Source of the DNA: Pelotomaculum sp.
GTDB lineage: Bacteria > Bacillota > Desulfotomaculia > Desulfotomaculales > Pelotomaculaceae
NCBI GenBank assembly: GCA_018435055.1
Contig: JAHDOA010000001.1
Span: 1-41,491 of the forward strand
Direction: 5' to 3'
Length of the DNA: 41,491 nt
A program made the translations under genes and the position numbers. Of this stretch, positions 9,448 to 12,850 are shown in pieces (the first letter of the stretch is position 1; each line of letters starts with the position of its first letter). The notes beneath the pieces are model-generated. The model was not told where the DNA came from, ran no database searches, and worked only from the letters and a program-made list of their open reading frames with translations.

Positions 9448-9476
9448 TTGCTTTTTGCCATATGCCGTGGTACTAT
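9448..9476 (+). promoter_or_regulatory. Promoter of the structured RNA
   Basis: TTGCTT (9448-9453) and TACTAT (9471-9476) are separated by 17 bases. Transcription would start near 9482, just before the 5' strand of the RNA closing stem. Confidence 0.65.
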
Positions 9477-9481
9477 AGTAT

Positions 9482-9757
9482 TAAGCACCATCCTTACAGA
9501 GACAGTGGTTTAGTTGCTTGTTGAGTCTGAATAAATTTCGGGTATAAGACAAGGTTGACCAGTCCATGGATAGTGTTTTTTGTTTCGGATTGTGTTTTCA
9601 AGAAAGCTGATGGGAAAAATTAGGTTGAGGACGTTTGGAGGAATTTCGGTAATCCATCTCGTAGTTTCAGTTGGTAAGTGCGGTATTGCCCTGGAATCAG
9701 AAGTTCTGTAGGGATGGTAGCTTTTAGGGAGAAGGTGCGGACCTTCTCCCTTTATTT
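9482..9757 (+). ncRNA. Structured non-coding RNA, family not identified (6S-like size)
   Basis: Between rlmH and dsrC is a non-coding unit with its own promoter and a strong terminator. ACCATCCTTACAGA (9487-9500) pairs over 14 positions, with one G-T wobble, with TCTGTAGGGATGGT (9705-9718), closing a domain of about 230 nucleotides. Inside, GGTAA (9673-9677) pairs with TTGCC (9686-9690), and CTTG (9517) plus TCT (9526) pair with AGA plus CAAG (9547-9553). No open reading frame fits it. Size and the long closing stem resemble 6S RNA, but I do not see features decisive for 6S, and conserved marks of tmRNA, RNase P RNA or SRP RNA are absent. Confidence 0.6.
9726..9757 (+). terminator. Terminator of the structured RNA
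   Basis: AGGGAGAAGGT (9726-9736) and ACCTTCTCCCT (9741-9751) form an 11-bp perfect stem with a GCGG loop, followed by TTATTT. Confidence 0.85.
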
Positions 9758-12580: not shown

Positions 12581-12850
12581 AATTTACTGGCAAAGCCATG
12601 ATGGGGAAGAATGCCGCTGTTAATCGAAAGCGAACCGGGGAATGGTGCGAGCCCGGTAGAGAAGAGCGTCAGAGCCGCCCCGGAGCTGCGGGCAGAAATC
12701 TAATTTATGTATGGTTAGAGAGTAAGATGCCGCCGGCTAACCCCGTTACAGGTTTAAGAGGGCTTTAAAGCAGGTCATTTGCTTTTTAGCCAATGAGGGT
12801 GGTACCGCGAGAACAACTCCCGTCCCTTTTTAGGGCGCGGAGTTTTTTAT
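12581..12850 (+). promoter_or_regulatory. T-box riboswitch leader, alanine specifier likely
   Basis: T-box leaders bind uncharged tRNA and switch a terminator to an antiterminator. The conserved AGGGTGGTACCGCG is at 12796-12809, followed by the terminator hairpin AACTCC...GGAGTT with a T run (12815-12849). Stem I has the apical GGTGCGAGCCCGG-type motif (from about 12644), and the base pairs GGGG with CCCC. In the 3' side of the specifier loop, AGA-GCC-G precedes CCCCGGAGCTGCGG, as the specifier does in other T-boxes, so GCC (12674-12676, Ala) is the best reading. The TGGT bulge fits a tRNA with discriminator A, as in tRNA-Ala. It controls the Lrp-type regulator and aminotransferase downstream. 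Confidence 0.92.

Follow-up and report, generated by a model that had tools for sequence, protein, structure and literature searches.

The window, the whole 41,491-nucleotide stretch of Pelotomaculum sp. DNA analysed here, carries between rlmH and dsrC an RNA gene of its own, confirmed by sequence comparison as a unit with its own promoter and terminator. Comparison with homologues further established the family as such, together with its promoter, its terminator and the helices P1, P2 and P2b, which are located in the window as follows:

9448-9476, + strand: sigma-A promoter (-35 TTGCTT at 9448-9453, 17-bp spacer, -10 TACTAT at 9471-9476)
9482-9757, + strand: free-standing RNA gene between rlmH and dsrC
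9483-9499, + strand: 5′ strand AAGCACCATCCTTACAG, common to P1 and the alternative helix P1*, nearly invariant in 62 homologues
9501-9564, + strand: P2/P2b arm with 13 modelled pairs, supported by covariation, in which GAC 9501-9503 pairs with GTC 9562-9564, TGGT 9506-9509 with ACCA 9558-9561, and CTTGTT 9517-9522 with GACAAG 9548-9553 (TTGCAA/TTGCAA in most relatives)
9526-9531/9537-9542, + strand: apical hairpin of the P2/P2b arm
9598-9705, + strand: variable middle region
9706-9723, + strand: 3′ strand of P1, CTGTAGGGATGGTAGCTT, with bulged A9719, present in 62/62 homologues
9726-9757, + strand: terminator T2, an 11-bp stem (9726-9751) with a T-rich tail (TTTATTT after the stem)

Transcription is predicted to start at about 9482. 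A promoter of the form TTGnnn-N17/18-TAnnnT stands at the same place in 62/62 homologues (with a spacer of 17 in 61), ending a few bases 5′ of TAAGCACC; the window promoter went uncalled in a simple sigma-70 scan because of its -35. An intrinsic terminator follows immediately 3′ of P1 in 60/61 homologues, and some 200 bases separate the end of the gene from dsrC, in line with the original prediction. The T2 stem keeps GRGAGAAGG/CCTTCTCYC in much of the family, beyond what a terminator needs, with one pair alternating between G-C and A-U. The window RNA, terminator included, folds at -94 kcal/mol (z = -5.1; none of 200 dinucleotide shuffles was as low), and no plausible ORF was found in the homologues, whose longest closed ATG/GTG/TTG frame measures 63 amino acids, with a median of 32. 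The promoter, the hairpins inside P1, the 11-bp terminator stem and the non-coding body of the original prediction were thus borne out. Elsewhere in the window, at 12589-12830, Rfam matched a T-box leader (97.7 bits).

The closing stem P1 joins 9483-9499 to 9706-9723 through 17 bp around the bulged A9719; the 14-bp closing stem proposed earlier is real, but its extent was underestimated, as it forms the inner part of this helix. Across 62 homologues, 720/744 of the P1 pair cells (97%) are canonical, and the proposed check for covariation in relatives came out in favour of the stem, which varies compensatorily at position 16 (CG in 39, TA in 22) and reads C-G, U-A or U-G at position 13. In the P2/P2b arm, both sides change in 13/13 modelled pairs and 85% of cells are paired (0/500 shuffles as high). 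The arm scored 0.34 for covariation; shuffles gave 0.18, and sliding the structure never gave more than 0.11. The underlying alignment had been fitted to the structure, a bias in favour of the score. For this arm we used a covariance model-based alignment (A3); MAFFT misaligned P2b between lineages.

The middle region, by contrast, differs between lineages in group-wise consensus folds, and because it is unalignable across lineages, RNAalifold on alignment A1 recovered mainly P1 and T2. In the window its helices are ATGGAT 9566-9571/ATCCAT 9652-9657, a competitor of P1*, and TTTCAG 9665-9670/CTGGAA 9691-9696. Many Desulfotomaculia-type members carry a Shine-Dalgarno-like GGAGG (GGAGGAA at 9637-9643 in the window) that no obvious start codon follows; Negativicutes members have not kept the motif.

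BLASTN searches with the window RNA matched 27/60 relatives at a loose E ≤ 0.1, several of the weaker matches being short or due to chance; similarity was full-length within the genus and limited to the conserved ends outside it. R1, a covariance model built on the 5′ domain, found the RNA in 33/113 genomes of the class, mostly at E values of 1e-11 to 1e-22, and an exact pattern searched in named genomes, with its matches confirmed by R1, extended the family to Sporomusa, Pelosinus, Lucifera, Anaerospora, Propionispora, Dethiobacter, Desulfocucumis and several MAGs. Model R2, run on a wider sample, detected the RNA in additional families of the phylum (7/398 genomes). As judged by these sequence models, the family spans many spore-forming Firmicutes of several classes, far beyond Peptococcaceae. 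Carriers are scattered even inside one family, so the RNA is accessory rather than universal. Named genomes carry one to four copies, with a single one in Pelosinus fermentans; the four of Sporomusa silvacetica (L073, L082, L096 and L104) form three sequence groups that differ in their middle region. At another locus (L127:4998-5529, minus strand), two tandem copies lie between a citrate-type-symporter-like gene and a feoA-like gene. A phage origin was considered and rejected, as the seven viral contigs that carry the pattern score near chance with R2 (best 20.5 bits), and pattern matches in unrelated phyla were dismissed likewise (best 25.9 bits).

In Pelotomaculum relatives the RNA lies between rlmH and dsrC, a context that is local to a few genera. 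No neighbour is constant across the homologues, and the genes downstream are diverse and often convergent, which favours action in trans. At two loci, L122:5321-6159 and L068:5324-6181, which belong to Desulfocucumis and one other genome, a tRNA gene and an SRP RNA directly follow the RNA on the same strand.

We next considered whether the RNA belongs to a known class. Rfam 15 gave no gathering-score match over 9482-9757 or in the homologues, only weak chance matches, so the original assignment to no known family held for the window copy and for distant members alike: the family is absent from Rfam 15. Among the open-licence papers listed, none described the rlmH-dsrC RNA. 6S RNA, the first candidate of the original prediction, has a similar size and a long closing stem; however, its model (RF00013) gave no match at E ≤ 10 for the window copy and none at E ≤ 5 for distant members, while 6S RNA was found in 58/60 relatives and, in this genome, at G000:C17:22017-22197 (E = 9.8e-20). 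As a good 6S gene lies elsewhere in the genome, 6S identity is excluded, and a divergent 6S RNA, refuted at the level of sequence and structure models, retains next to no probability. The raiA model (RF03072) had no match on the RNA at E ≤ 10 and none in 41 genomes (this one and 40 relatives), which weighs little since control genomes were likewise silent.

A leader or attenuator of dsrC would be in keeping with the position of dsrC, which lies downstream of the RNA here as it does in several related genera. The RNA has its own terminator, however, other genera have a different next gene, often on the opposite strand, and no conserved same-strand downstream gene lacking an intervening terminator was found; we therefore rejected this very improbable reading, in agreement with the original prediction of a free-standing RNA. 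Equally far-fetched is a CsrA-sequestering RNA, suggested by GGA motifs and by the GGAGG/GGAT motifs of several members: four carriers at least 93% complete (G004, G009, G017 and G018) have no CsrA match, and Negativicutes members do not keep GGAGG. The absence of CsrA from several carriers led us to reject it.

The 5′ strand of P1 (AAGCACcAUCC) is also complementary to a conserved element, GGRUnGUGUUU, about 80 nt downstream, with which it can form the alternative helix P1*; the original prediction had missed this second partner. The features involved are:

9568-9578, + strand: P1* partner element GGATAGTGTTT, supported by folds of the truncated domain, pair counts and tree-aware changes
9576-9585, + strand: U-rich tract UUUUUUGUUU, directly 3′ of the GUG strand of P1*; candidate partial terminator T1
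9587-9597, + strand: a second copy of the element (GGATTGTGTTT), imperfect but complementary to the 5′ strand at 10/11 positions, and not conserved in this form outside the genus

In the window, GGAT 9568-9571 pairs with 9490-9493 and GTGTTT 9573-9578 with 9483-9488, flanking a mismatch of A9572 with C9489. P1 and P1* are mutually exclusive, with one 5′ strand serving two conserved partners. When the 5′ ~100 nt were folded alone, P1* formed in 58/58 sequences with 8-11 pairs; at least eight pairs with the 5′ strand arose in 6% of 1800 shuffles that kept this strand, compared to 30/30 observed.

Comparison of sequences likewise supports the conservation of the P1* complementarity. Of the 53 members that share a register, all pair positions 4-7 and 9-12, 52 pair position 2 and 49 pair position 3, the exceptions at position 3 being four sequences (GTGTA types) with A opposite A3. 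C8 is unpaired in 53/53, facing A in 43, U in 8 and C in 2, but never G. On a tree built without the element columns under test, the base opposite C8 changed eight times, never to G, and the R opposite U10 changed nine times, exclusively between A and G. Most P1* pairs have no room to covary, as the 5′ strand does not vary in its core. Nevertheless, one genome (L002) shows a compensatory change from A-U to U-A that suits P1* and breaks P1 (GTAGCACC with GTGTTATTT), and in a sister group of seven loci (L022, L044, L051, L054, L056, L057 and L061) A13 has no partner in P1 (AA/AG), whereas in P1* it pairs with U. Pelosinus-type members form P1* in a different register, with a bulge. Part of the locus set was fetched with a pattern forcing GCACCATCC and GTGTTTTTT, which accounts for some of the conservation seen at those letters; the pattern placed no constraint on GGRU, n or position 13.

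We then examined the predicted order of folding by minimum-energy folding of transcript prefixes, which does not model kinetics. P1* was present in 78% of prefixes ending between the element and the 3′ end, whereas the predicted ensemble of the full-length RNA was dominated by P1 (median 12.0 of the 12 pairs counted), with a switch from P1* to P1 predicted once the last ~25 nt emerge. The order P1* then P1 is thus a result of prediction. In the window copy the share of P1* was lower (14/25 prefixes) because a middle-region helix, CATGGAT/ATCCATC, competes with it. Taken together, comparison and predicted folding revealed the arrangement of a metastable 5′ hairpin: the 5′ strand has a local and a long-range partner, both conserved, and can pair with only one of them at a time.

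The eight nucleotides after GUG include 5-8 U in 53/53 members and 6-7 in 51, in a set partly selected for GTGTTTTTT. P1* and the tract after it together look like an intrinsic terminator whose stem is imperfect. Some transcripts may therefore end at T1, although the mismatch speaks against efficient termination there. If T1 is a partial terminator, the gene would possibly yield forms of ~100 nt and ~275 nt.

Based on these data, we consider it probable, with appreciable doubt, that this is a trans-acting structured RNA with a metastable 5′ hairpin and two-state regulation, in which the 5′ strand is used twice. The RNA would be made from its own sigma-A promoter and not as a leader. During synthesis, the 5′ strand would pair with GGRUnGUGUUU as P1*, closing an arm of ~100 nt that ends in the U-rich tract, and the obligatory mismatch would keep P1* weaker than P1. 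Past T1, the last ~25 nt would provide CUGUAAGGAUGGUnGCUU, displacing P1* and closing the molecule as P1 just before T2, which would free the GGRUnGUGUUUUUU segment. The short or growing form would hence contain P1* and, if T1 terminates in part, would be a ~100-nt RNA with a U tail, while the long form, with P1, would expose the GU/U-rich segment to a partner RNA or protein, for which Hfq is the obvious candidate. Binding of Hfq, the likeliest candidate partner, and regulation of targets are our inference; hfq is present in 107/113 genomes of the class, including this one, so its presence does not discriminate.

Two other readings accept the same family and structure. In one, the RNA is static: P1 is the sole functional closing stem, GGRUnGUGUUUUUU is conserved as a single strand that binds Hfq, another protein or target RNAs, and its likeness to the 3′ strand of P1 is incidental or stems from a shared target. 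The dominance of P1 in the predicted equilibrium of the full-length RNA fits this account, as does the U6 stretch, which suits the proximal face of Hfq. GGRU, however, lies outside the U-run and is the exact complement of AUCC, its R changes exclusively between A and G, and n avoids only G; with the compensatory change in L002 added, we regard a static RNA as unlikely, though a serious contender. In the other reading, the P2/P2b arm is an aptamer controlling read-through at T1, and synthesis of the long RNA depends on a metabolite, as it does for EutX and Rli55. The arm is suitably placed between the two P1* strands and right before the U-tract, every modelled pair covaries, and another RNA body with its own terminator lies downstream; yet we noticed no antiterminator inside the arm, and its loops are strongly variable, without an invariant ligand-like core, which makes a ligand-controlled sRNA quite improbable.

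Returning to the preferred trans-acting RNA with a metastable 5′ hairpin, a more speculative extension, which we put forward tentatively as a possibility, is a new, self-timing class of regulatory RNA. Here, the 5′ strand would pass from an early hairpin-terminator, flawed by design, to the 3′ end; whether the transcript is complete would then determine which of two conserved surfaces is exposed, and the Sporomusa paralogues would combine the same switch with different variable bodies. It is rare for a structured RNA with its own promoter and terminator to be conserved in several Firmicutes classes and still lack an Rfam entry, so this one deserves a name. Its mismatch, kept through eight substitutions, is a comparative sign of refolding during transcription, of a kind rarely encountered except in riboswitches and toxin mRNAs. 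The RNA can be tested in hosts that grow in culture, among them Pelosinus fermentans and Sporomusa ovata.

Several known systems resemble this RNA in part. 6S RNA (RF00013), which changes fold during its cycle, is alike in size, in its long closing stem and in having its own gene; it differs in its central bubble, where the window RNA has a branched arm closed by P1*, and a separate 6S gene is present. EutX and Rli55 are sRNAs controlled by cobalamin riboswitches, with an early terminator in the sRNA gene and short and long forms. The window RNA would share the early terminator, as candidate T1, but has no cobalamin riboswitch match and finds its alternative partner at the 3′ end. The raiA RNA, or ModT, of C. 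difficile, another free-standing structured RNA of Bacillota, occurs as short and long isoforms through terminator read-through (PMC11706538); tandem terminators (here only candidate T1) would be a common trait, whereas the anatomy differs and raiA has no match on the window RNA. In hok and the Helicobacter aapA1 mRNAs, metastable 5′ structures form, in which a transient local hairpin of the nascent RNA gives way to long-range pairing with the 3′ end (PMC6733600). Although those are toxin mRNAs, and the window RNA is a separate family without a conserved ORF, the replacement of a transient 5′ hairpin by 3′-end pairing is the feature that the window RNA is predicted to have in common with them.
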